Shown piece after piece: positions 42,233 through 64,000 of a stretch of 64,000 bases of DNA. Source of the stretch: Pseudanabaena sp. PCC 6802 (GTDB lineage Bacteria > Cyanobacteriota > Cyanobacteriia > Pseudanabaenales > Pseudanabaenaceae); the NCBI RefSeq assembly GCF_000332175.1, contig NZ_KB235914.1:2600868-2664867 (forward strand), given 5' to 3'. Under the pieces are notes generated by a model, which ran no database searches, was not told the DNA's origin, and was given only the letters and a program-made list of their open reading frames with translations. Each line of letters begins with the position of its first letter. Position 1 is the stretch's first letter. A program made the translations under genes and the position numbers.

Positions 42233-44572
42233 ATGACGGGATCGGCTTGGCACAAAGGACTAGAGCTACTCTTGCAAGGGCAAGAGGAAGAAGCACAAAT
42301 GGTCTGGCTATCTGCGATCGCAGAAGGAACGCCAGAAGAAGTTGAAGTTTGGCTTGCAGAATTAGTAGATATCCTTAAGGATGAAGCTATAAAGCAAGAG
42401 GAATTAGAAAATTATGACAAAGCCTGGTTGCTTCGCCAACACATCCGCGAAAACGATCCTGAGAATGTAAATAATTTATATGCACTAGGCAATCTTTATG
42501 CAAGACTGGGTGAGCCGGAAGAAGCGATCGCCATCCACGAACGGGTTCTCGAAATAAACCCTCAATTTGCTCTCAGCTACGTGTCAATAGCCCATTTGTT
42601 AGCGCCAGCCAATCGCAACTTTAAACTTAGCCAACGAGATAAAGTTGAACAAGGCATTCAAGCATTGGAAAAAGCGATCGCGATCGATCCTGAATTACCC
42701 GTCTTAGGTGAATTAGCATATCTCCAGAATATTTTGGGAGAGTATGCGAAGGGAGAACAATATGCCAGACAGGCGATCGCTAAAAATCCGCAGGAGGGAG
42801 AAGTAAATAGTTTCACGTCGCGCGTGTTAGCGGAATCCCTACTAGGACAGGGAAAGTTAGATCGCGATCCCACCTGCACCATTGACTTTTCACCACTCCA
42901 AAATATTTTGACTCACCAGAACCCAGGAAAGAATTTAGAGAGGAATAGTCATTTAGTTTCTACCTGTATCGATCTCGGTGGCAGTCACCACTTAGATGAA
43001 TCCAAGCCAATTGTCTTTTTATCTTCAGATAGGGTATATTTTCGCAATTTTGGCATTGCCCAAGCATTGAGTTTATACGAAACATCACCTAGATGTGGCA
43101 TCCATTTCCATATTATGGATCCAGATCTAGAAACATTCCAATTACTCAGCTCGCTGCAGGGCAAATTGCCAGATCTACAGATATCGCATTCCTATGAATT
43201 TTTGGATATTGCCGACAACAATAACCCTGATGGCTTGATAGCAAAACTTGTCTACTATTGCTGCGTCAGGTTCTGTCGTGCTGCTGAGTTTATTCGCAAT
43301 GTTGGCAACACAGTTATTATCACTGACGCTGATGTTCTGTTTCGTCGCGATCTTGACTCTATTGTTAACTCAGAATCAGACTATGATATTGCTCTGGTAG
43401 ATTTTGGTTCTGGCCTACCAATTTACGACCGATACTGTGCATCACTTGTCATTGTTCGTCAAACCGAAGCTGCAAAAAACTACCTAAATTGTTTATCTGA
43501 TTTCATCATCCATAATTTACGCCAAAGATCTGCTTGGATGCTAGATCAATTTGGTTTATACGGTGTAGGAAACACATATGTCAAGAGGAATCCAGACTTT
43601 AAGACAAGATTTTTGCCCGACTATTATACGTCAACTGAATGGAGCGATCGCAATCCAATCTGGAGTGCTCAGAATAACAAAAAGTGGGAACAGAATCGAT
43701 ACACCGAACTCAAGCAAAAGATTCTTAGCAACTACGGATTTGCAGATTTAGCTGCGGATTTGCAGATGCGATCCGTCACAGTGACCGACACAAATGAATC
43801 AATGAACGAGTGCCAGAATTCAAACGAGATATTACTATCTGGCTTTAATCAGCTTTGTCAAGCCAAGTATGGCTTGATGCTCTATAACAAAAACGATCTT
43901 TATATTGGTAGATCGCTGAGCTATTTAGGCACATGGTGCGAGCATGAAATCGATCTGCTGAAGCAACTAATAAGTTCAGGTGATGTTGTTCTAGATGTAG
44001 GAGCAAATATCGGTACGCATACTTTGGCATTCTGTCAATTTGTTGGGGCAAGGGGAAAAGTATATGCGTTTGAGGCACAAAGAATAATTTATCAAGCTTT
44101 AGTTGCAAGTATTGCCTTAAATAGCATCTCCCACGCTTACTGTTTTAATCAAGCTGTAGGATCGGAACCCGGATTCATTAACGTGCCACAAATTGATTTC
44201 ACGAGATCGGATAATTTCGGTGGCGTAGTCCTGCAAGGTACATCAAGACTAGAAAAAACAGTCGCAAGTCAATACGAACGCGTAGAGATGGTAACGATTG
44301 ACAGCTTGGGGTTGCAGCAATGCCACCTGATCAAAGCCGATGTTGAAGGCATGGAGCGCGATGTCATCATGGGTGCGAGAAATACCATAGAGAAATACCA
44401 TCCCATTCTCTATCTTGAAAGCCATGATGATGACACAAGAAACCCATTAATCTGGCTTTGCAAGCAACTAGGATACATTTTATATTGGCATGGTACTGAA
44501 AACGACCCTAATATTTTAGGGATCCACCCACACCAAAACATACAAATACAAGGACTAGTAGAAGTCTCATGA
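42233..44572 (+). CDS. TPR - glycosyltransferase-like - FkbM methyltransferase fusion
   Basis: 779 residues. An N-terminal module shared with the SPINDLY paralogs (ELLLQGQEEEAQMVW, residues ~11-25; AWLLRQHIREN) is followed by TPR repeats (~80-200). A central domain (~255-460) resembles nucleotide-sugar transferases and has a DxD-type motif TVIITDADVLFRRDLDS (near residue 364). A C-terminal FkbM-type SAM-dependent methyltransferase (~545-760) has VVLDVGANIGTHTLAF (near residue 585) and LIKADVEGMERDVIMGA. FkbM enzymes commonly O-methylate sugars. The combination suggests adding and then methylating a sugar on a TPR-bound protein. Start of the island. Confidence 0.85.
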   Translation: MTGSAWHKGLELLLQGQEEEAQMVWLSAIAEGTPEEVEVWLAELVDILKDEAIKQEELENYDKAWLLRQHIRENDPENVNNLYALGNLYARLGEPEEAIAIHERVLEINPQFALSYVSIAHLLAPANRNFKLSQRDKVEQGIQALEKAIAIDPELPVLGELAYLQNILGEYAKGEQYARQAIAKNPQEGEVNSFTSRVLAESLLGQGKLDRDPTCTIDFSPLQNILTHQNPGKNLERNSHLVSTCIDLGGSHHLDESKPIVFLSSDRVYFRNFGIAQALSLYETSPRCGIHFHIMDPDLETFQLLSSLQGKLPDLQISHSYEFLDIADNNNPDGLIAKLVYYCCVRFCRAAEFIRNVGNTVIITDADVLFRRDLDSIVNSESDYDIALVDFGSGLPIYDRYCASLVIVRQTEAAKNYLNCLSDFIIHNLRQRSAWMLDQFGLYGVGNTYVKRNPDFKTRFLPDYYTSTEWSDRNPIWSAQNNKKWEQNRYTELKQKILSNYGFADLAADLQMRSVTVTDTNESMNECQNSNEILLSGFNQLCQAKYGLMLYNKNDLYIGRSLSYLGTWCEHEIDLLKQLISSGDVVLDVGANIGTHTLAFCQFVGARGKVYAFEAQRIIYQALVASIALNSISHAYCFNQAVGSEPGFINVPQIDFTRSDNFGGVVLQGTSRLEKTVASQYERVEMVTIDSLGLQQCHLIKADVEGMERDVIMGARNTIEKYHPILYLESHDDDTRNPLIWLCKQLGYILYWHGTENDPNILGIHPHQNIQIQGLVEVS

Positions 44573-44621
44573 CTACGCTAAAGCTTAATGAGATGCATTA
44601 TTAATCACTAGACAGAATGAT

Positions 44622-47228
44622 ATGAGCGCAAACAATCTCTATTGGTACGATGGATTAGAGTTGCTTCTACAAGGACAAGAGGAAGAAGCTCAAATGGTCT
44701 GGATATCTGCGATCGCCGATGGAACCCCAGAGCAAGTTGAAGTTTGGTTGGCAGAATTAGTAGATATCCTTAAAGGTGAAGCCATAAAGCAAGAGGGTTT
44801 AGGAAATTATGACAAAGCTTGGTTGCTTCGCCAGCACATTCAAGAAAATGCCCCAGGAGATATAGAGAACCTATTGCACCTGATCGTTACATCAATCAAA
44901 TCTCAAACATTCCGACCTAAAGAAGATACAGTTTTAGAAGATGTAATTGAATTGCTCACTGCTAGTTCGAGATCGAAAATAGATCTCAATCTTCCATTGC
45001 AAACATTGCAGGAATTAATTAGATCGGACGTTGCTGGTGATATTCTTCAGAGATTTTCTAATGCTTGTATTGTTTTCTATGACTCTTGCCTAGGGACAAT
45101 GGTAAATACCGAGTCCGCTGAGATTCACAATATCAAAGGTAATATCTATAGTAAAACAGGAAGAGTAGAGGAAGCGATCGCCTCATATTTAATTGCCTTA
45201 GAACTCGATCCCAATAATCCTGAACCACTGCTTGGCTTAGGTAATATCGAACAAGCATCGGGGAAACACGAAGCGGCAATTGCTTTTTATGAAAAAGCTC
45301 TACAGATTCAACCTGATTTTGCTAGTGCATATACTTGTCTGGGAGAATCACTATATTATCTAAATATATGCGATCGGGCAATTTCCAATTGGCAAAAGGC
45401 TCTCGAACTCGATCCAGAGCAGGTGGTTGCGAGATTAAGTCTAGCTAAAGTACTACTCCAAAATGCTTCTTTAGAGGAAGCATTCTCCTGTTTAGAGGAA
45501 GCACCTACCCATAAAATCGATTTCGCTTATGTTTACCTTGATTTGGGAGTAGCCTTTCACAACGAAAACGTTAAGTTGGAAGTCAAATGTTATCAGAAAG
45601 CCATATTGCTCAAGCCAGACTATGAGTTAGCCTATCTCAATCTTGCTATGGCTTTCTCAAAATCTAATATGCTAGATGAAGCTTATGAATGTTATAGAAG
45701 GTTATTAGACATTAATCCTAATCATGCAAATGCCTATGCTAATTTGGGGGATTTTTGGATGGTGCATGGCAACATTGAGGAAGCTCAATCTAATTATAGC
45801 AAGGCTTTACAGTTGAACCCTGATTGTCTAAAAGCTAATCGTATGAGTTTGTTGGGGTTACCTGTTATTTATGAAAGTGCAGATGAAATAGATTATTGGC
45901 GACAACACTTTACAGATGGCTTGCAACGTTACGCAAATCTTATATCGCAAAAGCTGGTAACAGATAAAGTATGGGCATTAGAGAGCATTGGTCTAAAAAC
46001 AAACTTTCATCTTGCCTATCAAGGTAAAAACGATCTCGAGCTGCAATATCATTATGGACAGATTGTTCAGCAAGTTATGGCAGCCAACTATCCGCAGTGG
46101 TCAAGACGTTTGGAGATGTCACTGCCCGCTCCTAATGGCAAAATTCGGATTGGATATATTTCTCCTTACTTTAGGGAGCATAGTGTTGGGAGAATGACCT
46201 TGGGCTGGATACAGCAACGAGATCGAAATAGCTTTGAGACCTATGTTTACTATACTGATAAACTAGTTGACAGTACCACCGAAAAATTTCAGCAAGAAAG
46301 CGACTTTTTTCGACATATTACTCCTAACGATCTAGAAGCCTGCTGCGATAGAATCTTTGCAGATCGCTTGCATGTACTGGTGTTTACAGACATTGGTATG
46401 CATCCTCAAATGACTCAAATTGCTGGCTTGAGACTCGCTCCCATTCAGTGCGCCTGGGCCGGCCACCCAGTTACCACTGGTATCCCAACTATTGCTTATT
46501 ATCTGTCTAGCGATCTGATGGAATCGGATGATGCCCAAGCACATTACTCAGAACAATTGGTTCGTTTACCTAGTCTTGGCTTGAGCTATCCTTGGCCTAA
46601 ACTACCTGCTACGCCTAAAGATCGAGCAGACCTGAATTTACCAAAAGACTGCTTGATTTATCTCTCATGCCAGACAATTTGGAAATATCTGCCTCAATAC
46701 GACTATATATTTACACAAATTGTTAACAAGGTTCCAGAGTCCAAGATTGCGTTTTGTGTAAGCGACATGCAAGATACTGTCACCCAAAAATTTCGACAGC
46801 GCATCGAATCAGCATTTTTAAAAGCTAATTTAGACTGCAACGATCGCTGCATATTTTTGCCTCGTATGAACTTTGAAGATTATCTCAGTCTCCTACTCAA
46901 CTCGGATGTTTCGCTGGATACAATTGGCTTTTCTGGATCGAATACAACCTTACAGGCGATTGCTTGTAATTTACCTGTGGTTACCATGCCAACTGAGTTT
47001 TTAAAAGGTCGTACAACCTATGGTATTCTAAAAGCGCTTGATGTAACAGATACAATTGCTTATAGCGAATCAGAATATATTGATATAGCCGTTAGACTTG
47101 GTCGGGATTTGCCTTGGAATCGAGATATAGTAGCAAAAATCAAATCACGCCATAAGTATGTATATAATGATGATAATTGTATTAGGGGATTGGAAAACTT
47201 TTTTAGAGAGATAGTAAGAACAGAATAG
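44622..47228 (+). CDS. TPR-SPINDLY O-GlcNAc-transferase-like protein 1
   Basis: 868 residues. The N-terminal module ELLLQGQEEEAQMVWISAI is almost identical to that of the previous gene, and the first 80 residues are a recent duplication. TPR repeats span ~165-420 (YLIALELDPNNPEPLLGLGN and repeats). The GT41/SPINDLY domain starts near residue 505 (IRIGYISPYFREHSVG), with AWAGHPVTTGIPTIAYYLSS and FSGSNTTLQAIACNLPVVTM. Likely transfers a sugar from a nucleotide donor to Ser/Thr of a target protein held by the TPRs. Belongs to the GHPVT subclass. Confidence 0.9.
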   Translation: MSANNLYWYDGLELLLQGQEEEAQMVWISAIADGTPEQVEVWLAELVDILKGEAIKQEGLGNYDKAWLLRQHIQENAPGDIENLLHLIVTSIKSQTFRPKEDTVLEDVIELLTASSRSKIDLNLPLQTLQELIRSDVAGDILQRFSNACIVFYDSCLGTMVNTESAEIHNIKGNIYSKTGRVEEAIASYLIALELDPNNPEPLLGLGNIEQASGKHEAAIAFYEKALQIQPDFASAYTCLGESLYYLNICDRAISNWQKALELDPEQVVARLSLAKVLLQNASLEEAFSCLEEAPTHKIDFAYVYLDLGVAFHNENVKLEVKCYQKAILLKPDYELAYLNLAMAFSKSNMLDEAYECYRRLLDINPNHANAYANLGDFWMVHGNIEEAQSNYSKALQLNPDCLKANRMSLLGLPVIYESADEIDYWRQHFTDGLQRYANLISQKLVTDKVWALESIGLKTNFHLAYQGKNDLELQYHYGQIVQQVMAANYPQWSRRLEMSLPAPNGKIRIGYISPYFREHSVGRMTLGWIQQRDRNSFETYVYYTDKLVDSTTEKFQQESDFFRHITPNDLEACCDRIFADRLHVLVFTDIGMHPQMTQIAGLRLAPIQCAWAGHPVTTGIPTIAYYLSSDLMESDDAQAHYSEQLVRLPSLGLSYPWPKLPATPKDRADLNLPKDCLIYLSCQTIWKYLPQYDYIFTQIVNKVPESKIAFCVSDMQDTVTQKFRQRIESAFLKANLDCNDRCIFLPRMNFEDYLSLLLNSDVSLDTIGFSGSNTTLQAIACNLPVVTMPTEFLKGRTTYGILKALDVTDTIAYSESEYIDIAVRLGRDLPWNRDIVAKIKSRHKYVYNDDNCIRGLENFFREIVRTE

Positions 47229-47233
47229 ATAAT

Positions 47234-47839
47234 ATGACTAATCAAGCAGAGAGTCTTGCTTTACAGCAAGTTGGAGAAGATGTAATGATATGGCCACTAG
47301 CCAAAATCATCACACCTGAAGTCATCTCAATAGGTGATTCAGTAATTATTGATGACTTTGTCTTCATTATGGGGGGTGAACGTACAATCATCGGTAGCTT
47401 TGTTCATATTGGTGCTTTTACATCTATTGCTGGTGGTGGGGAATTTATTATGGAGGATTTCTCCGGCCTATCAGGTGGAGTGAGAATTTATACTGGTAAT
47501 GAGGACTACGCGGGAGGCTGCTTAACTAATCCAACCGTTCCCTTTCCCTATCGTGTAGCCAGTCGTTCGTTTGTGCATATCCACAAACATGCGATCGTTG
47601 GCGCAAATTCGGTTATTTTGCCGGGAGTTGTAATTGGAGAAGGTGTTGCAATTGGAGCGAACTCCTTGGTTAAAAAAGACTGCGAGCCCTGGACAACCTA
47701 CTTCGGATCGCCAGCCAAACCGATTGGGGCGCGCCCCAAGGAAAAAATGTTAGAACTAGAGGCGCAATTGCGTAAAGATCTCTACGATCCTTATGGCAAA
47801 TATATCCCCAAGAGCGATCGCCGCGAACCAATAAATTAA
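47234..47839 (+). CDS. Hexapeptide-repeat acyltransferase
   Basis: 201 residues with left-handed beta-helix repeats throughout (VISIGDSVIIDDFVFIMGG, IVGANSVILPGVVIGEGVAIG). The tail YFGSPAKPIGARPKE is typical of sugar N- or O-acetyltransferases of the LbetaH class, which act as trimers with the active site between subunits. Six bases after the preceding SPINDLY gene. Together with the aminotransferase downstream it would form an N-acetylated amino-sugar nucleotide (QdtC/FdtC-like role); that is inference. Confidence 0.88.
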   Translation: MTNQAESLALQQVGEDVMIWPLAKIITPEVISIGDSVIIDDFVFIMGGERTIIGSFVHIGAFTSIAGGGEFIMEDFSGLSGGVRIYTGNEDYAGGCLTNPTVPFPYRVASRSFVHIHKHAIVGANSVILPGVVIGEGVAIGANSLVKKDCEPWTTYFGSPAKPIGARPKEKMLELEAQLRKDLYDPYGKYIPKSDRREPIN

Positions 47840-47925
47840 CTTGCCAGGTGATTACCCCGTTGGAGATCTGGGTATGCTGAATTTAGTTACCACGCAGCCT
47901 GCTATTACGGAGGAATCTACACGTT

Positions 47926-49140
47926 ATGATCGAGCTTCTAGAACAAAGCACGATTACCGATCTAGCAATTTTCGGCGGTAAGCCAGCTTTTGCTGAAAAG
48001 CTGCACGTTGGTCGGCCCAATGTTGGCAATCGCGAACGTCTTCTGGAACGCATCAACGACATGCTGGATCGCAAGTGGTTTTCAAACAATGGGCCTTACG
48101 TGCAGGAGTTCGAGCAGCAGATTTGCGAGAGGCTGGGCGTTAAGCACTGCATCGCTATGGTCAACGGCACTGTGGCGCTCGAAATTGCCATTAGAGCAAC
48201 AGGGCTGGCAGGTGAGGTAATCGTGCCGTCGTTTACCTTTGTGGCTACCGCGCACGCTTTGCAGTGGCAGGAAATCACCCCCGTTTTTTGCGACGTAGAC
48301 CCGCAAACCCACACTCTTAATCCCTGGCGGATCGAAGCCATGATTACACCGCGCACTACGGGTATAATCGGCGTGCATCTCTGGGGTAAGCCTTGTAACG
48401 TAGAAGCAATTACGGAGATCGCGCAAAAGCACGAGCTTAAATTACTCTTCGATGCTTCCCATGCTTTTGGCAACTCTTACAATGGTCAAAAGATCGGTAA
48501 CTTTGGCGATGCTGAAGTGTTTAGTTTCCATGCTACCAAGTTCCTTAATGCCTTTGAAGGCGGGGCGATCGTTACAAATAACGACGAGCTAGCTAATAAA
48601 ATTCGCTTGATGAAGAATTTCGGTTTTGCTGGCTACGATAACGTAGTTTACGTTGGCACAAATGGCAAAATGAGCGAAGTGTCTGCCGCAATGGGTTTGA
48701 CTGGTTTAGAAAGTATGTCTACTTTTATCGCGGCAAACCAACAAAACTATAAGCAATATCAACAAGAATTGTCTGGTTTAGCAGGGATTAAGCTATTTGC
48801 CTATGACGAGGCAGAGCATTGTAACTATCAGTATATTGTTCTAGAGGTTGATGAAACTAAGAGTCAAATCAGCCGCGATCGCCTGCTAAAAGTACTTCAT
48901 GCCGAGAATATTCTAGCGCGCCGCTACTTTTATCCTGGCTGCCATCGCATGGAACCATATCGCTCTTATTTCCCCCATGCAGGGTTGCTGTTACCAGAGA
49001 CAGAAAAGCTAGGTCAGCGGGTTTTGGTCTTGCCAACAGGTACATCGGTTAGTAGCGTAGATATCCATAAAATTACTCAAGTAATTCGCTATTGTGTTAC
49101 TCATGGATCTGAAATCAGTCAAAGGCTTAGATCTCAATAA
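47926..49140 (+). CDS. DegT/DnrJ/EryC1/StrS sugar aminotransferase
   Basis: 404 residues, ATG after TACGGAGGAATC. PLP-dependent: DASHAFGNSYNG (Asp binding PLP), SFHATKFLNAFEGG (Lys for the Schiff base, near residue 206), then NKIRLMKNFGFAGYDNV. Transfers an amino group from Glu to a keto-dideoxysugar nucleotide. The exact sugar cannot be read from the sequence. Flanked by an acyltransferase and SPINDLY enzymes, so it probably makes the donor for the island. Confidence 0.9.
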   Translation: MIELLEQSTITDLAIFGGKPAFAEKLHVGRPNVGNRERLLERINDMLDRKWFSNNGPYVQEFEQQICERLGVKHCIAMVNGTVALEIAIRATGLAGEVIVPSFTFVATAHALQWQEITPVFCDVDPQTHTLNPWRIEAMITPRTTGIIGVHLWGKPCNVEAITEIAQKHELKLLFDASHAFGNSYNGQKIGNFGDAEVFSFHATKFLNAFEGGAIVTNNDELANKIRLMKNFGFAGYDNVVYVGTNGKMSEVSAAMGLTGLESMSTFIAANQQNYKQYQQELSGLAGIKLFAYDEAEHCNYQYIVLEVDETKSQISRDRLLKVLHAENILARRYFYPGCHRMEPYRSYFPHAGLLLPETEKLGQRVLVLPTGTSVSSVDIHKITQVIRYCVTHGSEISQRLRSQ

Positions 49141-49151
49141 AAAACAGCATC

Positions 49152-51800
49152 ATGACGACAGCACTATCTGACTGGGAGCAACAAGCCCAAGCTTATTTTT
49201 TGCAAGGTAACTATAGCGAGGCAGTTAGTTTGTACGAACAGGCGATCGCTTCTAACCCCAATGTCAAATCTTACTACTGGCAACTTGGCTTGCTGCTGCT
49301 ACTGCAAGGTCAAGAAGAGGAGGCACAGATGGTGTGGTTTGATGCGCTTTCTACGGCAGACTCGGAAGCAGAAATGCATGCCTATATTGCTGAACTGATA
49401 GAAACTCTGGATAACGAATCTCAAATCCAGGCAAATAGGGCAAACTATCAAACTGCATGGTCGATCCGTCAATACATTCACGAAAATCAACCTGAGAATG
49501 TCGATAACCTTTTGCAGACGTTCTTGCTGCATATCAAGCTAGATCGCGACAACTTCAGTCTACCGGAAAATACGATCCTACAAGAAGCGATCTCTCTATT
49601 ACCTGACCGTTCGCCTGCTGAAGTTAATGGTGTTTTGTTATTACAGGTTGTCCAGAAGGTTGTAGCTCTAGATCGTACTTCCCCCAGTTGCTTGCAATTG
49701 ATAGATGCCTGCGTTGCTCACTATCAGAAAGCTTTAGCAGATCGACCAGAAACTGCCGAATGGCATTACAGGTTGGGAACGATCTATGCAGAAATGCAAC
49801 AACATGTGGATGCGATCGCTTACTACAACCAAGCTTTGCAACTCGATCCCAACTACGCCGAAGCCTATTTCAGTCTTGGGAATATCGATTTAAATCAAGG
49901 AAATTACGAGCAAGCGATCGCCAATTACCAAACAGCGATCCAACTCAACCCAATTTTTTCTAAAGCCTACATCAATCTAGCGTACGTTCAAGAGAGGCAA
50001 GAGAAAATTGAAGAAGCTATTCTAAACTTACAAAAAGCGCTTGAAATCCAACCTGATTTTGTGGAGGCACATAGAAATTTAGGTGTCTTACTTCTGAAAG
50101 CTGGCAGGGATGACGAAGCAATAGCCAGATTTCAAAGAGCAATAGAGATTTGCCCAACCTATGCTGAGGTCTACAGAGATATTGGCGATATTTTTCTTCG
50201 GAAAGACAATTTGGAAAAAGCGGTTGACTATTATCAAAGAGCAATACAAGTTCAACCTAATTATGGGGATGCTTATTGGCAGCTTATCATTCTGCTTAGT
50301 AAATCCCAATTGAGTAAAGAAGCTAGTGCTTCGAGAAAAATTCTTGTCGATCGGTACGCACTATCATGTGGATCGAGCGATCCCATTCGTTCGCAAGTAG
50401 CTTTTATTGGCTCATATCTCATTGCTGGTATGTACGATCGAGCGCTCGAGCAATTTTTAGAGTTGGAAAATCAAATTTACGAACATGCCGCTCGTCTTAC
50501 CCCCAAGGAAATTCAAGCACTTTATACGTGGCTATTAATTGCTATTCCCCATTTGAGAGATGATCTGGGAGCTAACTCTCAATTATCAAAGCTAATTGGG
50601 GAATTATATACCCGAAAAGTTCTGGCTGCTCGGCCTATTACCTCACAAAGATCTTTCTATCCAGCTTCGGATCCTTCCAAACACTTAAAAATAGGGTTTA
50701 TCTCTCCAAATTTTGCGAGGAATGCTGTTGGATGGCTTTGCTTTGATGTAGTTTGCGAGTTATCTCAACTTACTCCCCACATCTATCTTTATGCTACCGG
50801 AAATCTTCGGGAAGACGATCGCACTGAAATGTTCGCGCGCGTAGCCTCGAAATTGTATCGACCTCAAGATCTACTCTCCAATAATTTAGTAGAGGAGATT
50901 TTAATGCAAGTTAGAGAAGATGAGTTAGACGTATTAGTCGATCTAGACTCTGTGACTATGCATGTAAATCCTGAAATCCTTTACCAACAGCCTGCGCCTG
51001 TGTGTATTTCCTGGTTGGGATTTGACGCTCCCTTTATAACCGCTCGGAACTATTACCTCAGCGATCGCTATTTACATCCTGAAGGCACTGAAGCTCACTA
51101 TTGCGAGCAAATTGTCAGAGTCCCAGATCTATGTGTTGCCATATCTGGGTTAGAAAGAGAACCAGCATGTCGCGATGAAATGCGCCATGAGTTGGGTATT
51201 AGTGCAGAGCAAGTTGCATATTTGACCCTCGCATCAGGGCGCAAGTTTACCCCAGATATGGTTAAAGCTCAGGTAAGTATATTAAAATATGTTACAAATA
51301 GCGTACTGATTCATAAAGCCATTACTGGCGACCCTGAAATTATACAGTTGTCCTATCAACAAGAGTGTGCGATCCAAATGGTCGATTTTAATCGCATCAA
51401 ATTCATTAAACCTCAGTTGCCAGAGGAAAAACATAGAACCACCTACATTGCTGCTGATGTCATGCTAGATTCCTATCCCTACAATGGCGGTACTCACACT
51501 ATAGAAGGACTGTGGTTCGATCTGCCACTAGTAACTAGAACCGGATCGCAGACATTTATGGGTAGAGTAGGTTACGCTTGCCTAACATCTTTAGGGATTG
51601 CTGAAGGTGTCTCTTGGAGTTGGGAAGAATATACTGACTGGGGAATTAAATTTGGATTAGATTCTAGTTTGAGAGTATCTGTAAGAGAAAGAATGGTTCG
51701 AGCTAAGCAGATCGAAACTTTAGCACCTCTGTGGAACCCCAAGAAGCTTGCTAGAGATATGTACGATCGGTTTAGGGAACTAAGATTTAAACAGATTTGA
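49152..51800 (+). CDS. TPR-SPINDLY O-GlcNAc-transferase-like protein 2
   Basis: 882 residues. N-terminus EAVSLYEQAIASNPNVKSYY, then the shared GLLLLLQGQEEEAQMVWFDAL module (near residue 45). TPRs ~190-400. GT domain from residue ~511 (LKIGFISPNFARNAVGWLCF), SWLGFDAPFITARNYYLSD, and YNGGTHTIEGLWFDLPLVTRT. It belongs to the second subclass with WLGxDA in place of GHPVT and a SVGWL-like opening (here AVGWL). Stop overlaps the next start. Confidence 0.9.
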   Translation: MTTALSDWEQQAQAYFLQGNYSEAVSLYEQAIASNPNVKSYYWQLGLLLLLQGQEEEAQMVWFDALSTADSEAEMHAYIAELIETLDNESQIQANRANYQTAWSIRQYIHENQPENVDNLLQTFLLHIKLDRDNFSLPENTILQEAISLLPDRSPAEVNGVLLLQVVQKVVALDRTSPSCLQLIDACVAHYQKALADRPETAEWHYRLGTIYAEMQQHVDAIAYYNQALQLDPNYAEAYFSLGNIDLNQGNYEQAIANYQTAIQLNPIFSKAYINLAYVQERQEKIEEAILNLQKALEIQPDFVEAHRNLGVLLLKAGRDDEAIARFQRAIEICPTYAEVYRDIGDIFLRKDNLEKAVDYYQRAIQVQPNYGDAYWQLIILLSKSQLSKEASASRKILVDRYALSCGSSDPIRSQVAFIGSYLIAGMYDRALEQFLELENQIYEHAARLTPKEIQALYTWLLIAIPHLRDDLGANSQLSKLIGELYTRKVLAARPITSQRSFYPASDPSKHLKIGFISPNFARNAVGWLCFDVVCELSQLTPHIYLYATGNLREDDRTEMFARVASKLYRPQDLLSNNLVEEILMQVREDELDVLVDLDSVTMHVNPEILYQQPAPVCISWLGFDAPFITARNYYLSDRYLHPEGTEAHYCEQIVRVPDLCVAISGLEREPACRDEMRHELGISAEQVAYLTLASGRKFTPDMVKAQVSILKYVTNSVLIHKAITGDPEIIQLSYQQECAIQMVDFNRIKFIKPQLPEEKHRTTYIAADVMLDSYPYNGGTHTIEGLWFDLPLVTRTGSQTFMGRVGYACLTSLGIAEGVSWSWEEYTDWGIKFGLDSSLRVSVRERMVRAKQIETLAPLWNPKKLARDMYDRFRELRFKQI

Positions 51801-56847: not shown

Positions 56848-56853
56848 GTTCAT

Positions 56854-59118
56854 ATGAAGGCAAATAATTGGCAGCAACAGGCAAATAACTACTATGCAAG
56901 GGGAGAATATCATAAAGCTGCCCAAGCCTACGAGCAAGCAATTGCCGCAGAACCCACACAAATTTCTTACTACTGGCATCTAGGTTTGATGCAACTGTTA
57001 CAGTCCCAGGAAGTAGAGGCACAAACTACCTGGCTGGAGGGTATGTCGGTAGCAGAGTCCACTTTGCCGGATGACATATCGGGTATGCTAGACTCTAAAT
57101 TGGCAGAATGGAATTCTGAATTAGCCGAGGTTTTGATATCAGAAGCTACTCGACAGCAAGAAACATCTGCTTTAGATACTGCCTGGCTGTTGCGTCGTCA
57201 TGTCCATGAAATTGACCCCGATAATATTAACAATCTATTCCAACTGGTAGAATTATCTATTCGTTCCAGATCGCTAACTGAGTCGGATTTTGTCGAGCTT
57301 GACGTAGTAAATGCTCTGAGAACTTGCCAGCGACCTGAAACAGTCAATCTAGATTTGCTATTGCGGGTTTTAGAACAAGCCTTTGAATATCCCCCACTTT
57401 ATTCATCATTGACAGAGTTGATCGCCTTATACCCCCCTTTTATTGAAGGTACAGAGGCGATTGGGTTTCTTACAGTAGTTATTAATGGTGCGGTGAAGCT
57501 GGCATACCTTGGCAATCAAACCAGGTTGGCAATTGAAATATTAGAATTAGGCTTGCGACTAGCACCGGAGGAACTAGAGATTCTCAATCACTTAGCACCT
57601 CTATATCAAAATATTGGTGAGTACGAGCAAGGGATTTCTGCTGCTAAGCAATGTTACGAGTTATCTCACAACTTAATCGATCGCATTGTCGCCAACTACC
57701 TGTTATTGAGGGGTTTAATTGGCTCAGGTGGGAATTGGCAAGAAGCATTAGCTGTGTTGGAACGACATGAATCTTTGCTACTATCGTTAATGCAATCGAA
57801 TGCCACCAAATTGGATTCTGTTACTACCCAACGACTCTATCTTACTTATTCTGTTGCCCCCTATCTCATAGATCGCCCTACCCATCTCCGTACTATTCAG
57901 AATCAAGTCTCGCAGTTATGCCAAGCAAATGTAGAAACTTACGCCAGACAACATATTCAGCGATTTCAACAATATAAAGTTAAACTGCAACCAGATCGGC
58001 AACTAAAGATCGGCTATGTTTCTCATTGCTTGCGCAGCCATTCTGTAGGATGGTTAGCACGCTGGCTAATTCTCCACCACGATCGCGATCTGTTTCGCAT
58101 TCACGGTTATCTAATTGCCGACCAGCAAGTAGAGGATTCCCTTCGCGACTGGTACGTGCAGCAATTCGATCGTGCCTATCGAGCCGGTATAGATGGACCA
58201 GTAAGCAGTTTGTCAGTAGCCGAGCAAATCTATGAAGATGAGATTGATATTCTCATCGATCTTGATAGCACTACTTTGGATGGTACGTGCGAAGTTATGG
58301 CTTTAAAGCCTGCTCCGATCCAGGCAACCTGGCTAGGCTGGGATGCCTCTGGCATTCCAACCATAGACTACTTCATTGCCGATCCCTATGTATTGCCTGA
58401 TAATGCACAGGATTATTACACTGAAAAGATTTGGCGCTTGCCCCGTACTTATATTGCTGTAGATGGCTTCGAGGTAGCAGTACCTGGCTTGCGCCGCGAT
58501 CTACTGGAAATCCCCAATGATGCGGTAATTTACTTCAGCGCTCAAAAAGGCTACAAGCGCCATCCCGATACGGTTCGCTTGCAAATGCGTATTTTAGCAG
58601 CAGTACCCAATAGCTACTTCCTGGTCAAGGGACTGTCGGACCAGCAGGCGATTAGGGACAGTTTCTTACAAATTGCTAACGAAGAAGGAGTAACTAGCGA
58701 TCGCCTCCGATTCTTACCCCCCACACCCTCTGAAGCCATTCATCGCGCTAATATGGGTATTGCCGATGTAATATTAGATACTTATCCCTATAATGGTGCG
58801 ACTACTACTCTAGAAGCATTGTGGATGTGCGTACCACTAGTAACCAGAGTAGGCGAACAGTTTTTTGCTCGCTACAGCTATACAATGATGACAAATGCTG
58901 GGATCGTTGAAGGCATTGCCCATACAGATGAAGAGTATGTTGAGTGGGGGACTCGCCTCGGCTGCGATCCGGCTCTACGGCAACAGATCTCCTGGCGGTT
59001 GCGCCAATCTCGCCAAACATCACCGCTCTGGAATGGGGAGAGTTTTACTAGGGATATGGAATCTGCCTACAGACAGATGTGGTTAAAGTACCTAGAGAAA
59101 CAATCGCTATCTAATTAA
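56854..59118 (+). CDS. TPR-SPINDLY O-GlcNAc-transferase-like protein 4
   Basis: 754 residues. N-terminal module YYWHLGLMQLLQSQEVEAQ near residue 40, with TPR-like repeats fewer than in the other paralogs (~220-320). GT domain from ~384 (LKIGYVSHCLRSHSVGWLAR), ATWLGWDASGIPTIDYFIAD, YNGATTTLEALWMCVPLVTR. WLGxDA subclass. Three bases before the next paralog. Confidence 0.88.
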   Translation: MKANNWQQQANNYYARGEYHKAAQAYEQAIAAEPTQISYYWHLGLMQLLQSQEVEAQTTWLEGMSVAESTLPDDISGMLDSKLAEWNSELAEVLISEATRQQETSALDTAWLLRRHVHEIDPDNINNLFQLVELSIRSRSLTESDFVELDVVNALRTCQRPETVNLDLLLRVLEQAFEYPPLYSSLTELIALYPPFIEGTEAIGFLTVVINGAVKLAYLGNQTRLAIEILELGLRLAPEELEILNHLAPLYQNIGEYEQGISAAKQCYELSHNLIDRIVANYLLLRGLIGSGGNWQEALAVLERHESLLLSLMQSNATKLDSVTTQRLYLTYSVAPYLIDRPTHLRTIQNQVSQLCQANVETYARQHIQRFQQYKVKLQPDRQLKIGYVSHCLRSHSVGWLARWLILHHDRDLFRIHGYLIADQQVEDSLRDWYVQQFDRAYRAGIDGPVSSLSVAEQIYEDEIDILIDLDSTTLDGTCEVMALKPAPIQATWLGWDASGIPTIDYFIADPYVLPDNAQDYYTEKIWRLPRTYIAVDGFEVAVPGLRRDLLEIPNDAVIYFSAQKGYKRHPDTVRLQMRILAAVPNSYFLVKGLSDQQAIRDSFLQIANEEGVTSDRLRFLPPTPSEAIHRANMGIADVILDTYPYNGATTTLEALWMCVPLVTRVGEQFFARYSYTMMTNAGIVEGIAHTDEEYVEWGTRLGCDPALRQQISWRLRQSRQTSPLWNGESFTRDMESAYRQMWLKYLEKQSLSN

Positions 59119-59120
59119 AA

Positions 59121-61376
59121 ATGAGCGAGCAGATAATCCCAAGTATTCAAGCACATCAGGAGTTTCTGCAAGGAAACTACAATCGTGCTGTGGAGTTATT
59201 CGAGCAGGAAATAGCTCAATATCCAGAGCGAGTATCGAACTATTGGTATTTAGGACTAGCTTTATTACTACAGGGGCAAGAAGCCGAAGCTCAGATGGCG
59301 TGGATGGCACCCGTGATGGATGCCAATCTAGAGCAAGCTCAAATATGGACGAGCGAACTGGTTAGCGTATTACAAACCGAAGTAGAACGCCAGCGAGCGC
59401 TGGCAGAATTATCGGTTAATGGGGATAGCCAGAATCTGAAAACAGCATGGGCAATTTGCCAGCACATTCGTGAGATCGACGCGGAAAATTTATCTAATCT
59501 CTGGCAGTTACTGCAACTCTCACTAGAGCTAGGAAATCTCAATGCGGACGATCGAATTCTAGAGCAAATAATAAATATTCTGAGAGCTTCGCCACCATCA
59601 CCTGCAATTGCCGATCGTTTGGTGCGAAAAGTTTTGCAACAACTTCTGAATTCCATTCCCGTTCGCCCATTAACATTTCAGCTAGCGAATGCTTGTTTGG
59701 GCAATAAATCAATCGATGCAGAAATCCTATTTGTTATGCTGCTCGCTAAAATGGATGCATTCACGCATGCACTACCATTGCCGCTTGCAATTGAATATGG
59801 CGAACTGTGCTTGAGGCTGCAACCCAAATGTCTAGAAGCAATTGCCAACCTGATTAATTGGTATCAAAATGCTGGTAAGAACCTGGAAAGTGTGAAGTTG
59901 GCGCAAAACATGCTCGCGATCGCGCATAAATTGGAAGATCGCATCGCTGCCAATTACCTGATGACGCGAGGTTTTATGCAGGCAGGCGGTCACTGGGCTG
60001 AAGCCCAAACTGCTTATCAAGAGTATATGGGTTCGGTGCGATCGCTAATTCAACTAGGTATACCGATAGATATCAATCATATTCTTAATATTACGACAAC
60101 TGGCGCATTTGCCTTTTATTTCGACGATCGCCCTCAAGCAACCCACCAGTTTCTGAGAGAACTGGGCAGATTCACGCAAACAAGAATTCGACAGCATTTC
60201 AGGTACGAAGAAATAGGTGAATCGGGTGCAGGTTCTGTAGGCGAGCCAAAAATCCGGGTTGGCTATTTATCTCAATGTTTGCGCAGGCATTCTGTCGGCT
60301 GGATATCACGCTGGCTCTTTCATTATCACGATTGCGATCGCTTTAAGATTTACGCCTATTCTTTAGTTCAGACAAACGATAATGTCCAACAGTTTATTGC
60401 CCATAGTTGCACGGAATTTCGACATTTATCACCTGCCGACTCAATCGATCGCATAGCTTCCCAAATTCAACAAGATAAAATTGATATCTTAGTCGATCTT
60501 GATAGTCTAACCTCAAAACGCTGCTATGGTGTATTGGCCTTGCGTCCTGCACCGATCCAGGTTACCTGGTTGGGGATGGATGCGCCTGGGCTACCTGCAG
60601 TTGATTATTTTATCGCCGATCCATATGTCCTGCCAGAAGTTGCCAGCGATTATTATGCCCAGAGAATCTGGCGATTGCCACAAACCTACGTTGCCGTAAA
60701 TGGGTTTGAATTAGCAGTACCAAGTCTGCGTCGCCAGTATCTTGACATCCCCCAAGATGCCGTAATTTACCTGAGTTGTCAAACTGCTGTCAAGCGACAT
60801 CCAGATACTGCCAGATTGCAACTAAAGATTATTAAGTCCGTTCCTAACAGTTATTTTCTGATCAAGGGTGGTGATGAAATAGAAGTAATTCAACAATTTT
60901 TCACACAAATTGCCCTAGAGGAAGAAGTAAGTTGCGATCGCCTCCGTTTCCTCCCTGAAGTCCCATCAGAAGAAATTCACCGTGCCAATTTAGGGGTTGC
61001 CGATGTAGTACTAGATACTTACCCCTATAATGGTGCAACTACTACTTTAGAGACTTTATGGGCGTGCATCCCTCTAGTTACCAGAGTAGGAGAACAGTTC
61101 GCCGCCCGCAATAGTTATACCATGATGGTGAATGCAGGCGTGACAGAGGGTATTGCTTGGACAGATGAAGAGTATGTAGAATGGGGAATTCGTCTTGGCA
61201 CAGATCCACATCTGAGACAAACAATCGCTCGCAAACTACATTTATCCAGACGTACATCCCCGCTTTGGAATGCAAAAGCCTTTACGCGAGAAATGGAAAA
61301 TGCTTACAGGCAGATGTGGCAAAAACATTTGGGCGATCGAGGTTCTAGCGATCTGAGGCTGAATACAGCGCTATAA
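59121..61376 (+). CDS. TPR-SPINDLY O-GlcNAc-transferase-like protein 5
   Basis: 751 residues, a tandem duplicate of the preceding gene. N-terminal YWYLGLALLLQGQEAEAQMAW near residue 35, GT domain from ~376 (IRVGYLSQCLRRHSVGWISR), TWLGMDAPGLPAVDYFIADP, YNGATTTLETLWACIPLVTR. WLGxDA subclass. Starts 2 bases after the previous stop. Confidence 0.88.
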   Translation: MSEQIIPSIQAHQEFLQGNYNRAVELFEQEIAQYPERVSNYWYLGLALLLQGQEAEAQMAWMAPVMDANLEQAQIWTSELVSVLQTEVERQRALAELSVNGDSQNLKTAWAICQHIREIDAENLSNLWQLLQLSLELGNLNADDRILEQIINILRASPPSPAIADRLVRKVLQQLLNSIPVRPLTFQLANACLGNKSIDAEILFVMLLAKMDAFTHALPLPLAIEYGELCLRLQPKCLEAIANLINWYQNAGKNLESVKLAQNMLAIAHKLEDRIAANYLMTRGFMQAGGHWAEAQTAYQEYMGSVRSLIQLGIPIDINHILNITTTGAFAFYFDDRPQATHQFLRELGRFTQTRIRQHFRYEEIGESGAGSVGEPKIRVGYLSQCLRRHSVGWISRWLFHYHDCDRFKIYAYSLVQTNDNVQQFIAHSCTEFRHLSPADSIDRIASQIQQDKIDILVDLDSLTSKRCYGVLALRPAPIQVTWLGMDAPGLPAVDYFIADPYVLPEVASDYYAQRIWRLPQTYVAVNGFELAVPSLRRQYLDIPQDAVIYLSCQTAVKRHPDTARLQLKIIKSVPNSYFLIKGGDEIEVIQQFFTQIALEEEVSCDRLRFLPEVPSEEIHRANLGVADVVLDTYPYNGATTTLETLWACIPLVTRVGEQFAARNSYTMMVNAGVTEGIAWTDEEYVEWGIRLGTDPHLRQTIARKLHLSRRTSPLWNAKAFTREMENAYRQMWQKHLGDRGSSDLRLNTAL

Positions 61377-61400
61377 TTAAGCAAAAAGTAGAGGTGTCCC

Positions 61401-61484
61401 ATGAGCGATTTGCAAACGAAAATACTAACAGATACTAGGATTACCGCTATATGGGATAAGACAGAATTGAAATTTCACCGATAG
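61401..61484 (+). other. Very short open frame of doubtful status
   Basis: 27 codons (MSDLQTKILTDTRITAIWDK...) in the gap between protein 5 and the next methyltransferase. An ATTACCGCTATAT segment inside resembles the tips of the MITE at 16299, so this may be a fragment of a small mobile element. Probably not a gene. Confidence 0.15.
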
Positions 61485-61511
61485 CCTTATTTTGAAACAG
61501 CTTAAACTATA

Positions 61512-62039
61512 ATGACATCTATAAAATTACACATTGGCGGTAAAACATCTCACCCCGAGTGGCAAATTGTTGACATTGAGCCGCGCCCAGAAGTTGATTA
61601 TGTATGTGATGCATCCGATCTAAGTCAGTTTGCAGACAATTCGGTGTCTGAAATTTATGCTAGTCACGTTCTGGAACACTTTCACTATGCTTTAGGAAAT
61701 GAATTGCTACTTACCCTTTTAGAGTGGTATCGAGTCCTCAAACCTCAAGGGAAGCTTATGCTTAGCGTCCCAGATCTGAGAACCTTATGCTGGCTGTATC
61801 TAAATCCCGATCTGGACTCTACAGAGCGCTATAAGATCATGCGGATGATATTTGGCGGACAGATAAATCAGTATGACGTTCATAAAGTTGGTTTTGATTT
61901 CGATCTCTTAGCTACTTACTTATCAGAAGTGGGATTTCAGGAATGTCAGCGCGTTGCAGAGTTTAATCTATTCAAAGATTGTAGCAGCATGCGCGTACTG
62001 GGCAATCTAATTAGCCTTAACGTCATTGCCACTAAATAA
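61512..62039 (+). CDS. SAM-dependent methyltransferase (type 11)
   Basis: 175 residues: LHIGGKTSHPEWQIVDIEPR, DASDLSQFADNSVSEIYASH (the Asp and the loop binding SAM), VLEHFHYALGN, EWYRVLKPQGKLMLSVPDL. A small class-I methyltransferase seen often in glycan clusters, acting on sugars or lipids. Substrate unknown. Confidence 0.85.
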   Translation: MTSIKLHIGGKTSHPEWQIVDIEPRPEVDYVCDASDLSQFADNSVSEIYASHVLEHFHYALGNELLLTLLEWYRVLKPQGKLMLSVPDLRTLCWLYLNPDLDSTERYKIMRMIFGGQINQYDVHKVGFDFDLLATYLSEVGFQECQRVAEFNLFKDCSSMRVLGNLISLNVIATK

Positions 62040-62838
62040 CACAAATCTATCCCAGCTATTACAATTTTTGTCTATTTCACAATTTTGGAACTAAACTTGC
62101 ATAAGGATTACAAGATTAGTAGGATAGATCCATATTACCAATCTCGTCTAACCTGCACGCAGGAATATTTAGCTCTGCTGCCGCGCTTACCGTACTATTA
62201 TCTTCATGTTCTAATTCTATTCGAGCTTTAACTCTCGGAAGTAAATGCTGCCATTGTAATGGACTGAGATCGGTAATTATTGAGATTTGGGGTTCTCGCT
62301 CAAATTCTAGATCTGGCTGCATAACTAAATTCATTACTACTTCCGCGATCGCCTCATCAGCAATTTCAGGGTCAGTATTAGTAGCATCTACTAACAAAGT
62401 AATGCGATCGCAGTTAGGAGATGTAAGAATTGCACTAAAGACTTCTCTCAATTCTTTAATAAGCCCCTCTGTCTTCGACCAAGCCGGGAAGATAATATAG
62501 TTGATTTCTCTTAAACCTAAACGGTCTAGCGATTCCACGGTAGAAGGCGATGGTTGATGTCTGGGATTAATAATCTCTGATGCCTGGCTTTTAATATCTA
62601 GCTCGTCAGCAATTACATCCCAAATCTTATCAAAAATATTTTCCCAATTATGTTCTTTAATAATATGCTCTCTTACTAACTGACTTCTGTGCAAAAGTTC
62701 AGATTCAGGTAAATTTAAAGCCCTCTCGATAATCTGTCGATTTTTATCGGGGTCATGAGTCAAGTAGATTGCATGGGGGCAATCAAAGCCACTTTCAGGA
62801 GTGACCAACGGTATTAACCCTCTGGCGCTATTTTCTAA

Positions 62839-63713
62839 GAAGCCATTTAGGAAGTAAAAGGCGCACCAAAAGCAGGTATAAATACTGATGAAGTCTAGTA
62901 TAAACCTGAAGAGATGCGCCGATCCTATAATACCGATTTATCCAACCAAGAATGGGAAATTATCGCACCCATGCTACCCAAACCATCAAAATGGGGTAGG
63001 CCACCCAAAACAAATATGCGAGAGTTACTGAATGCCATTTTCTATATACTCAAAAATGGTTGTACATGGCAGAATCTACCCCATGACTTTCCGCCTTACT
63101 CAACGGTCTATTTCTACTGGCAAAGGTGGGAAAGAACTGGGCTACTGGAGGAGATTAATCGCAAATTGAGCCAACAATTTAGGGAAAAGGTTAGTAAAGA
63201 GGCGACCCCAAGCTTGGTGAGTATCGATAGCCAGAGTGTGAAGACAACAGAAAGTGCGGGCAGTCGAGGTTTTGATGGCGGTAAGCAAATCAAGGGCAGA
63301 AAACGCTTCGCTATGGTTGACACCTTGGGCTTAGTTGTAAAGGTGTTGGTGTGTGCAGCTAACATCGGTGAAAGAGCAGGAGCTAAGCAGTTGTTACAGA
63401 ATCTCACATCTCCATTACCACGATTAGAGAAAATTCTGGTTGATGCTGGATTCTCTGGTGATGAAATCACACAATGGGTCAACGACAACTTCGGATGGCT
63501 TTGGGAAGTTAGCAAACGGGCAGACAATCAGAAAGGTTTTGTAGTGGAGTCAAAGCGTTGGGTGGTAGAGCGAACCTTTGCTTGGTTAGGTAATTGTCGT
63601 AGACTAAGCAAGGATTATGAATTTTATGAGCAAATGTCTGAATCGTTTATTTACTTGGCTTTAATCCGCAAAATGCTAAGAAATCTGGCAACTGCGACTT
63701 CCTAAATGGGTTC
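62839..63713 (+). mobile_element. 875-bp IS5-family element, copy B
   Basis: Same length and, as far as I can compare, same sequence as copy A. Flanked by TAA on both sides (62836-62838 and 63714-63716), the target duplication. Inserted in a glycosyltransferase gene. Confidence 0.93.
62914..63705 (+). CDS. IS5-family transposase (copy B)
   Basis: 263 residues, identical to the product of copy A: DUF4096-type N-terminus and DDE_Tnp_1 domain with Asp, Asp and Glu in the same positions. Intact, so the element is probably active. Transcribed opposite to the gene it interrupts. Confidence 0.93.
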   Translation: MRRSYNTDLSNQEWEIIAPMLPKPSKWGRPPKTNMRELLNAIFYILKNGCTWQNLPHDFPPYSTVYFYWQRWERTGLLEEINRKLSQQFREKVSKEATPSLVSIDSQSVKTTESAGSRGFDGGKQIKGRKRFAMVDTLGLVVKVLVCAANIGERAGAKQLLQNLTSPLPRLEKILVDAGFSGDEITQWVNDNFGWLWEVSKRADNQKGFVVESKRWVVERTFAWLGNCRRLSKDYEFYEQMSESFIYLALIRKMLRNLATATS

Positions 63714-64000
63714 TAAGATGACTGTGGCTTGTGCATCCATTGTCGCTGTATGAATATAGAAGTCACAGGTGTCAACTATCCATTGGTTAAATTCCAGATC
63801 GGCATTATTTACACTACCTAAAAAGTTAAAAGTATATTTTTTGCCATTTATAGTGGCATCGATTAAACCTGTAGGTGCCTGTAAAGATTTGCTGGCTACA
63901 TTTAAGCGAGCGTCCAAGCCTTTCAAGCTTTCGCAGGTATTCTCAAACCCCTTATAGGAGCCGAGAGTGCTGATGTGTAGAAGCTGGCGCTGTCCAACTG

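Follow-up and report, generated by a model that had tools for sequence, protein, structure and literature searches.

The closest described counterpart of the locus reported here is the pilA-ogt locus of cyanobacteria, in which the gene for an Ogt glycosyltransferase lies beside pilA (PMC12288463). The Ogt of S. elongatus has been reported to glycosylate PilA (PMC12647202), and cyanobacterial Ogt has an influence on the assembly of pili (PMC12288463) and on the formation of biofilms (PMC12647202). OgtA of N. punctiforme is indispensable for motility and for the development of hormogonia (Khayatan 2017, cited in PMC12288463 and PMC6495340). How soluble glycosyltransferases choose their target proteins is poorly understood, especially in O-linked systems (PMC7591256). 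In FlmG of Caulobacter, a cytoplasmic enzyme with a C-terminal GT-B domain, the TPR domain at the N-terminus is what binds flagellins and determines specificity (PMC7591256). The flagellin viosamine island of Pseudomonas syringae joins aminotransferase and N-acyltransferase genes with transferase and methyltransferase genes (PMC3927599), as does the locus described below.

The window is the whole stretch analysed, 64,000 nucleotides from Pseudanabaena sp. PCC 6802. Eleven genes, A to J and the pilin P, occupy positions 42233-62039 of the window, all on the plus strand and all with open reading frames. These genes, the N-terminal module that several of them carry, and the features next to them are as follows:

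42233..44572, plus strand: gene A, N-terminal module/TPR, orphan GT-A-like domain and FkbM methyltransferase (PF05050 64 bits, PF03407 25.6 bits)
42245..42508, plus strand: N-terminal module in A (profile matches; 5' DNA similarity to B)
44622..47228, plus strand: gene B, N-terminal module, TPR and GT41 of an otherwise module-less clade (PF13844 106.3 bits; tree)
44640..45068, plus strand: N-terminal module in B (profile matches)
47234..47839, plus strand: gene C, hexapeptide acyltransferase (PF00132; 3vbi and kin, E 1.6e-38, residues 7-182)
47926..49140, plus strand: gene D, DesI-type sugar aminotransferase, DegT (TIGR04427 543.5 bits, below the curated cut-off of 650; PDB 2po3, E 2.6e-125)
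49152..51800, plus strand: gene E, N-terminal module, TPR and divergent GT41 (PF13844 87.6 bits)
49275..49703, plus strand: N-terminal module in E (profile matches)
51797..54283, plus strand: gene F, TPR-GT41, second half of the module at most (PF13844 112 bits)
54301..55803, plus strand: gene G, TPR-arginine methyltransferase, PRMT9/PRMT7-like, without module (PRMT9 7rbq_A, E 2.2e-59 over the PRMT part)
56001..56555, plus strand: gene P, type IV pilin of PilA type (PF16734, Pilin_GH, 86.9 bits; PF07963, N_methyl, 38.4 bits)
56854..59118, plus strand: gene H, N-terminal module and TPR-GT41, pilA-type Ogt (PF13844 162.9 bits)
56971..57399, plus strand: N-terminal module in H (profile matches)
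59121..61376, plus strand: gene I, N-terminal module and TPR-GT41, pilA-type Ogt (PF13844 163.1 bits)
59241..59669, plus strand: N-terminal module in I (profile matches)
61512..62039, plus strand: gene J, small SAM methyltransferase (PF08241 33.6 bits)
62116..62838, minus strand: 3' part of an IS-split GT1-like gene, recognised by eye (5' part from 63714 into the adjoining stretch L009)
62839..63713, plus strand: IS5-family element, 875 bp, TSD TAA (PF13340 and PF01609; ends located)

The right half (56001-62039; P, H, I and J) is the published pilA-ogt locus of cyanobacteria, and the left half (42233-55803; A to G) is an expansion of it. As with Ogt of S. elongatus and OgtA of N. punctiforme, a GT41 gene adjoins the major pilin gene, and pilin modification is common to both, as a prediction in the present case. 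The published locus is reported with one Ogt (PMC12288463), whereas here there are five GT41 enzymes, a GT-FkbM fusion, a PRMT and a viosamine-type pathway; the available text of PMC12288463 makes no mention of an N-terminal module. The initial annotation knew of no cyanobacterial system of this kind described as a unit, which does not hold for the pilA-ogt core (PMC12288463, PMC12647202); for the expanded island and for the module, no paper was evident within the literature text accessible to the search. The module with its linkage to pilins is the new element here, the pilA-ogt core being known.

Genes A to G are tightly packed and co-oriented, with gaps of -4 to 86 bp in an operon-like layout. 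The pilin is flanked by gaps of 197 bp (on the side of G) and 298 bp (to the start of H); H and I are 2 bp apart, and I and J 135 bp. Promoter and terminator scans of the locus gave results level with shuffles. The five SPINDLY-type glycosyltransferases announced in the initial annotation all exceed the PF13844 cut-off (87.6-163 against 25 bits), and the TPR-GT-FkbM fusion (A), TPR-PRMT fusion (G), aminotransferase (D), hexapeptide acyltransferase (C), small methyltransferase (J) and type IV pilin (P) that it listed are likewise present. The GT1-type enzyme that it had also counted in drops out: this gene, for which a Pfam search of the 62116-62808 frame returned no family, is broken in this genome by the IS5 insertion and was rejected as a functional component on that account. 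A second, identical copy of the element lies at 12012-12886 of the window. The cluster extends beyond the window, where FkbM-type methyltransferase and 2OG-oxygenase-type genes follow on the minus strand (L009:581-2167 and 2227-3252).

Pilin P, which matches both the prepilin N_methyl motif and the Pilin_GH domain, is 70-71% identical to its nearest relatives. The initial annotation had called its tail Ser/Thr/Asn-rich, but the tail proves unexceptional. These residues make up 35% of the last 40 positions; the mean for 73 relatives is 27% (s.d. 8%), and 16 of the 73 have 35% or more. The tail was rejected as special evidence on this comparison and is an ordinary variable loop bounded by two cysteines.

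A, B, E, H and I have in common an N-terminal module of about 130 residues. A Pfam search with residues 1-167 of B returned no family at E<=1. A module profile built from 13 relatives only scores B at 125, I at 115.5, H at 113, A at 97.5 and E at 97 bits, and the remaining GT41 ORFs of the genome at 9.3 bits at most; as these are rich in TPRs, the view that the module is merely generic TPR was rejected. F reaches 36.7 bits with a profile built from the window and 13 bits with the relatives-only profile, and G reaches 3.5 bits with the latter. At E<=1e-12 the module was found in 72 of 292 genomes, a count in which at most 14 candidates were scored per genome and pilin positions were kept separate. 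In other genomes GT61-, FkbM- and Methyltransf_24-type domains carry it too, as does a weakly GT9-like protein whose gene comes immediately after that of a pilin.

Two overlapping sets of loci (at least two genomes in common, L189 and L191) bear on the linkage of the module to pilins. The first holds 55 module matches from 41 other genomes: 40 of these have a pilin match no more than 10 kb away, 35 of the 55 have one on the same strand no more than 1.5 kb away, and 15 have none within 10 kb. For the second set, the best 80 of 193 confirmed matches gave 79 loci, which by accession prefix represent about 72 assemblies; 70 of these loci have a module gene at most 400 bp downstream of a pilin. The outcome named in advance as refuting a link, glycosyltransferases of this kind at pilin-less loci, did not come about for the main, module-bearing type, in which the pilin lies directly upstream at 70 of the 79 loci. 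Among the same 79 loci from the best 80 of 193 matches, nine lack an adjacent pilin, including four Microcystis loci with at least two module genes each, and 25 have GT41 genes without the module near a pilin. Of the loci compared, that of the window shows the greatest variety, with five module enzymes and a predicted private activated-sugar pathway.

The best pilin loci of 53 other genomes have a GT41 gene within the stretch in 37 cases and a J-like gene (55-68% identity) in 10, some of these stretches being short because of contig ends, so that absences are lower bounds. Because the host genome (5.6 Mb) holds only six GT41 ORFs beyond the island's five and the pairing recurs in 37 of 53 genomes, the clustering of GT41 genes with pilin goes beyond chance, and the proposed link of the glycosyltransferases to the pilin is supported. 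Counterparts of D, C, G and the GT-A-like gene of A were not matched beside the pilin in the 53 genomes, bar one weak match, and the full gene set of the left half was found beside the pilin in none of the 53.

We consider it somewhat better than an even bet that the locus is a pilin post-translational modification island with module-directed enzymes. The module (in A, B, E, H and I, and perhaps as a half in F) would bind the pilin or its leader or export complex and would give specificity, at least in part; a new domain placed behind it would recruit a new enzyme to the same pilin. It is read as a pilin-address module by analogy with the flagellin-binding domain of FlmG. In its model, H is likewise composed of a helical part and a glycosyltransferase, while FlmG acts on flagellin with pseudaminic acid; here there is a pilin, a different N-terminal module and several enzymes that carry it. 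Against the address reading count the module-less G, the at most half module of F, the module matches away from pilins and the module-less GT41 genes near them. Because of these last, the module is not the sole mark of the pilA neighbourhood, and confidence in the favoured explanation and in the domain-swapping reading was lowered. The linkage could also be inherited synteny, with binding of the module to pilin a prediction.

In the proposed order of steps, the adjacent Ogt-type enzymes H and I would modify P, as S. elongatus Ogt is reported to do with PilA. An RmlB encoded elsewhere in the genome (dTDP-glucose 4,6-dehydratase; TIGR01181 500.8 bits, cut-off 365.1) would supply dTDP-4-keto-6-deoxyglucose, which D and C would convert to dTDP-N-acyl-4-amino-4,6-dideoxyglucose of viosamine/anthrose type. 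In the cytoplasm, four transferases (B, E, F and A through its GT domain) would then attach viosamine-type and other sugars to the pilin. Methylation of the glycan would fall to J and to the FkbM part of A, and methylation of pilin arginine to G; the substrates of the methyltransferases are guesses.

Evidence for the sugar comes from C and D. The anthrose pathway uses a sugar aminotransferase and an N-acyltransferase for dTDP-4-amino-4,6-dideoxyglucose. The structure matched by D, 2po3, is presumably DesI, and 3vbi, named galactoside O-acetyltransferase in the PDB, is taken here to be AntD; for C, the next PDB chain after 3vbi and its kin falls to E 2.4e-9. Together C and D point to dTDP-N-acyl-viosamine, a sugar of the type found in the flagellin glycans of Pseudomonas, and with RmlB they support the N-acylated amino-sugar pathway of the initial annotation in a form narrowed to the viosamine/anthrose type. 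The P. syringae island has vioR/vioS-type genes (PMC3927599), whereas none of the eleven genes here matched a vioR/vioS-type acyl-chain family; a pilin is the probable acceptor, and the transferases are GT41 enzymes with a common module.

A to G might instead put the viosamine-type sugar on another surface protein or a polysaccharide, with only P, H, I and J acting on the pilin and the proximity of pilA incidental. Seven other Cyanobacteriia have orthologues of D (66-75% identity); the neighbourhoods of these hold no pilin match and no module genes, look mostly polysaccharide-like by eye, and in two cases include an adjoining C-like gene. C and D were for this reason rejected as generally pilin-specific enzymes, and the link between D and the pilin rests on operon position here; a C-plus-D-like pair lies near a pilin in one of the 79 loci from the best 80 of 193 matches (L146). 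The 197 bp between A-G and the pilin also fit this alternative, as does the catalytic-domain tree (203 sequences, 198 distinct; FastTree local supports, midpoint rooting). In it, a clade of 38 (support 0.978; an inner 26 with 1.0) takes in B and F, and its 36 other sampled members all lack the module; B is a chimaera of the module and a GT41 from this otherwise module-less clade. A 'non-pilin' type for these GT41s was rejected because 31 of the 36 have a pilin no more than 10 kb away, in loci chosen around module genes and pilins; 42 of the 55 module-less domains come from such positions since loci were taken there. A, B and E do bear the pilA-linked module, however, the island genes all run in one direction, and none of the eleven matched a flippase, polymerase or export family. 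We consider this alternative unlikely, at about one chance in four.

The GT-A-like domain of A matches PF03407 with 'TDADVLF'. It has no relatives at E<=1e-6 in 291 other genomes and weak PDB matches (E 0.6 and worse), and AF2, given six aligned rows, modelled A with a mean pLDDT of 54 and about 40 in the central domain. G aligns with PRMT9 in its SAM motif, double-E loop and THW-type loop (motif names as we take them), the last reading TCW as in the first PRMT9 module. Both have TPR repeats, those of PRMT9 by our assumption, ahead of the PRMT domain; G differs from PRMT9/PRMT7 in being bacterial and adjoining a pilin gene, and its substrate is a prediction.

H was modelled with AF2 at a mean pLDDT of 92.1, as helices over residues 5-372 followed by the GT41 domain, with VIA-align rows scarcely covering the first 120 residues. 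The model matches TtOGT (Z 43.9, residues 195-751) and SPY (Z 42.4, residues 1-748); a search of a viral structure library gave distant glycosyltransferase matches only. The active-site Lys (TtOGT K341 position; Lys568), presumably catalytic, is present in all five island enzymes and in 203 of 203 GT41 domains; the active-site His is kept in four of the five and is Asn in E. H thus has the fold and Lys of SPINDLY and O-GlcNAc transferase, a family whose sugar donors are UDP-GlcNAc or GDP-fucose, whereas the module here is unmatched by Pfam and donor and substrates are predicted.

This modelled likeness might suggest that the enzymes are Ogt-type regulators, acting by O-GlcNAc or O-fucose signalling on PilA accumulation or development, with no decoration of the pilus and a module held by common ancestry. 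In Nostoc punctiforme, OgtA is reported to affect PilA levels. The requirement for OgtA in motility and hormogonium development would agree with such a role (PMC12288463, PMC6495340), but the Ogt of S. elongatus is reported to glycosylate PilA itself (PMC12647202), the module also occurs on non-GT41 enzymes, and the operon holds an aminotransferase and an acyltransferase; regulation alone is improbable, at roughly one chance in eight. Least probable is that the left half is a recent, mostly neutral or decaying accumulation of genes by duplication and transfer that has no stable function, which would agree with the 82% DNA identity of the 5' ends of A and B (238 bp), the lack of at least half of the module in F, the IS-broken neighbour and the absence of the set beside the pilin in all 53 relatives, and which the eleven open frames, the tight packing of A-G and the retained Lys (5/5) and His (4/5) speak against.

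A wider reading of the favoured island is that a dedicated pilin address module of about 130 residues exists, into which evolution plugs varied enzymes so that pilus modification is rebuilt by domain swapping; we hold this possible at somewhat under even confidence. The enzymes plugged in behind the module would be GT41 of several clades, a GT61-like and perhaps a GT9-like transferase, and FkbM and other methyltransferases. If the reading is true, the module would be a sequence handle predicting pilus-acting enzymes across cyanobacteria, and glycoengineering might use it to target enzymes of choice to pili. The island itself predicts N-acyl viosamine on cyanobacterial pili.

The island comprises eleven genes on the + strand of a 5.6-Mb cyanobacterial genome (window 42233-62039), in the order A-B-C-D-E-F-G-P-H-I-J:

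A, module/TPR, GT-A-like and FkbM parts
B, GT41 (SPINDLY/OGT-family glycosyltransferase domain)
C, hexapeptide acyltransferase
D, DegT aminotransferase
E, GT41
F, GT41
G, TPR-PRMT
P, 56001-56555, type IV pilin
H, GT41
I, GT41
J, small methyltransferase

Two genomes of the same family (G022 and G033) are, across the regions compared, identical to named contigs of Pseudanabaena biceps PCC 7429 and Pseudanabaena sp. UBA1465. Genes A-G are tightly packed (intergenic gaps of -4 to 86 bp), with gaps of 197 bp between G and P and 298 bp between P and H. The initial annotation of a protein-modification island around a pilin is largely right, except for its GT1-type enzyme: the convergent GT1-like gene at the island end is interrupted by an 875-bp IS (62839-63713). 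This IS5-family element has an identical copy at 12012-12886. Past the window lie an FkbM-type gene and a 2OG-oxygenase-type gene. Directly upstream (30898-41946), two large sensor-kinase-like genes were recognized by eye, along with a response-regulator kinase and a GAF kinase-like gene; the P. syringae viosamine island likewise has a histidine kinase gene at its border (PMC3927599).

A, B, E, H and I share a related N-terminal segment, the module, roughly 130 residues long (consensus YWxLGLxLLLQGQEEEAQxxW...); a Pfam search with B residues 1-167 gave no family at E<=1. With a profile built from 13 relatives only, the five window copies score 97-125 bits, compared with 13 for F, 3.5 for G and at most 9.3 for other GT41 ORFs of the window genome. 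The AF2 model of H (pLDDT 92.1) shows the module as part of a helical array preceding the GT41 domain; the model aligns with T. terrenum OGT (Z 43.9, rmsd 3.6, 515 residues) and SPY (Z 42.4, rmsd 10.9, 582 residues).

The module is found mostly beside pilins. There are 61 matches in 42 of 58 genomes (E<=1e-6); outside the window genome, 40/55 have a pilin match no more than 10 kb away and 35/55 have one within 1.5 kb on the same strand, and one of the 15 lacking a match within 10 kb (G030) is at a contig end. In a separate scan of named genomes, 276 stretches gave 193 confirmed, the best 80 of which were kept as 79 loci, all with cyanobacterial titles. In 70/79 of these, a module gene follows a pilin on the same strand at a distance of at most 400 bp. 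The exceptions are:

L162, L164: module on Methyltransf_24
L173: pilin 5.7 kb off
L177, L181, L185, L204: Microcystis, tandems of two to four module genes, without a pilin match in the stretch fetched
L182: at contig start
L213

The substrate of the Microcystis tandem genes is a puzzle for a pilin-directed module. Counting against a special role of the module, 25/79 named loci (e.g. L141, L171, L186, L214) also contain, in the stretch fetched, a GT41 gene lacking the module; many of these genes belong to the clade of B and F. Across the phylum, 72/292 genomes carry the module (E<=1e-12); the highest copy number seen, five, is reached in the window genome and in one other.

Within the window, A is the non-GT41 bearer; fusions outside it are:

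L130: GT61
L126, L134: FkbM
L205: FkbM, adjoining a pilA-GT41 pair
L162, L164: Methyltransf_24
L131: GH43-like domain
L080: protein directly after a pilin, weakly GT9-like (21.4 bits, cut-off 22)

Module scores are moderate in L126, L130, L131 and L134 (50-67 bits). A tree built from 203 GT41 domains places H, I and E in a group of 161 (support 0.979; 142 carrier domains, 16 non-carrier, 3 window), and B and F in one of 38 (support 0.978; inner 26 at 1.0). Because the 36 other members of the latter lack the module, B combines a pilA-type module with a GT41 from a different clade; even so, 31 of these 36 have a pilin no more than 10 kb away in the loci fetched. B and A share 80% identity across B residues 8-87 (DNA 82% over 238 bp), a sign of recent shuffling. 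Elsewhere in the genome, L010 (G000:C5:4410000-4429999) holds two adjoining giant TPR-GT41 genes, one encoding 1645 residues and the other a 3724-residue open frame.

The island consists of two halves, A-G being an expansion. When the best pilin locus was fetched from each of 53 other genomes, 37 proved to have a GT41 gene in the retrieved stretch, in most cases immediately following the pilin (several of the 16 without are short contigs); some have tandem GT41 domains, two in one ~1500-residue protein. J-like methyltransferases occur at 10/53. No C-, G- or A-GT-like gene was found at E<=1e-8 in these 53 loci, and D-like genes are limited to one weak match (29% identity, G045). The suggestion that such a system is undescribed in cyanobacteria applies to the expansion and module, for which literature searches returned no description; the core was already known, as S. 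elongatus Ogt is reported to glycosylate PilA (PMC12647202).

Of 292 genomes, 11 besides that of the window have a D orthologue (E<=1e-90), and seven of the 11 belong to the same class. The neighbourhoods in these seven, judged by eye, are mostly polysaccharide-like; two have a C-like gene and two a module-less GT41 gene (L245, L252), and they contain no pilin or module gene. D is nearest to PDB 2po3 (E 2.6e-125), which we take to be DesI, and scores 543.5 bits against TIGR04427 (DesI), below the cut-off of 650. For C the nearest structures are 3vbi and kin (E 1.6e-38, against 2.4e-9 for the next chain), entered in the PDB as galactoside O-acetyltransferase and presumably AntD of anthrose synthesis. 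These relatives, with RmlB encoded elsewhere in the genome, point to dTDP-4-amino-4,6-dideoxyglucose as the predicted product, N-acylated by C. Flagellin glycans of P. syringae carry this sugar type as their cap, and mutants and mass spectrometry served to assign vioA, vioB, vioM and vioT there (PMC3927599). In Nostoc mirabile, a pilA-GT41 pair has a DegT and hexapeptide-transferase pair (L146:18652-20353) about 6.6 kb away on the opposite strand.

G aligns with PRMT9 at the SAM motif, double-E loop and TCW loop. The window genome has four PRMT-like genes, and four others of 292 genomes have one at E<=1e-20; the three further copies in the window genome (G000:C5:2423800, 2238128 and 479998; L239-L241) are 59%, 57% and 32% identical to the PRMT part of G. 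Sugar methylation could fall to J and to the FkbM part of A. The last residue of the window pilin is Asn, whereas a C-terminal trimethyl-lysine has been suggested for Synechocystis PilA1 (PMC12288463); 18 of the 25 relative pilins listed end in Lys. PilT is also encoded in the genome, and a 557-residue frame (G000:C5:1024341-1025450) has three Pilin_GH matches in a row.

Lys568 of H is conserved in 203/203 GT41 domains, and all 143 domains from module-bearing proteins have His396, as do B, F, H and I (Asn in E); this conservation supports catalytic activity. In Caulobacter, flagellins are bound by the N-terminal TPR domain of FlmG, which determines specificity (PMC7591256). By analogy, the module would dock an enzyme on the cytoplasmic prepilin, GT41 would then transfer the first sugar to Ser/Thr of the pilin, and further module enzymes would extend or methylate the glycan; we infer the docking, donors and step order. 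Tentatively, and somewhat against the balance of probability, the module may be a pilin-address module behind which different enzymes are plugged. The best reading, held with modest confidence, is an island for pilin post-translational modification, in which an Ogt-type core is joined by an expansion that may have module-directed specificity.
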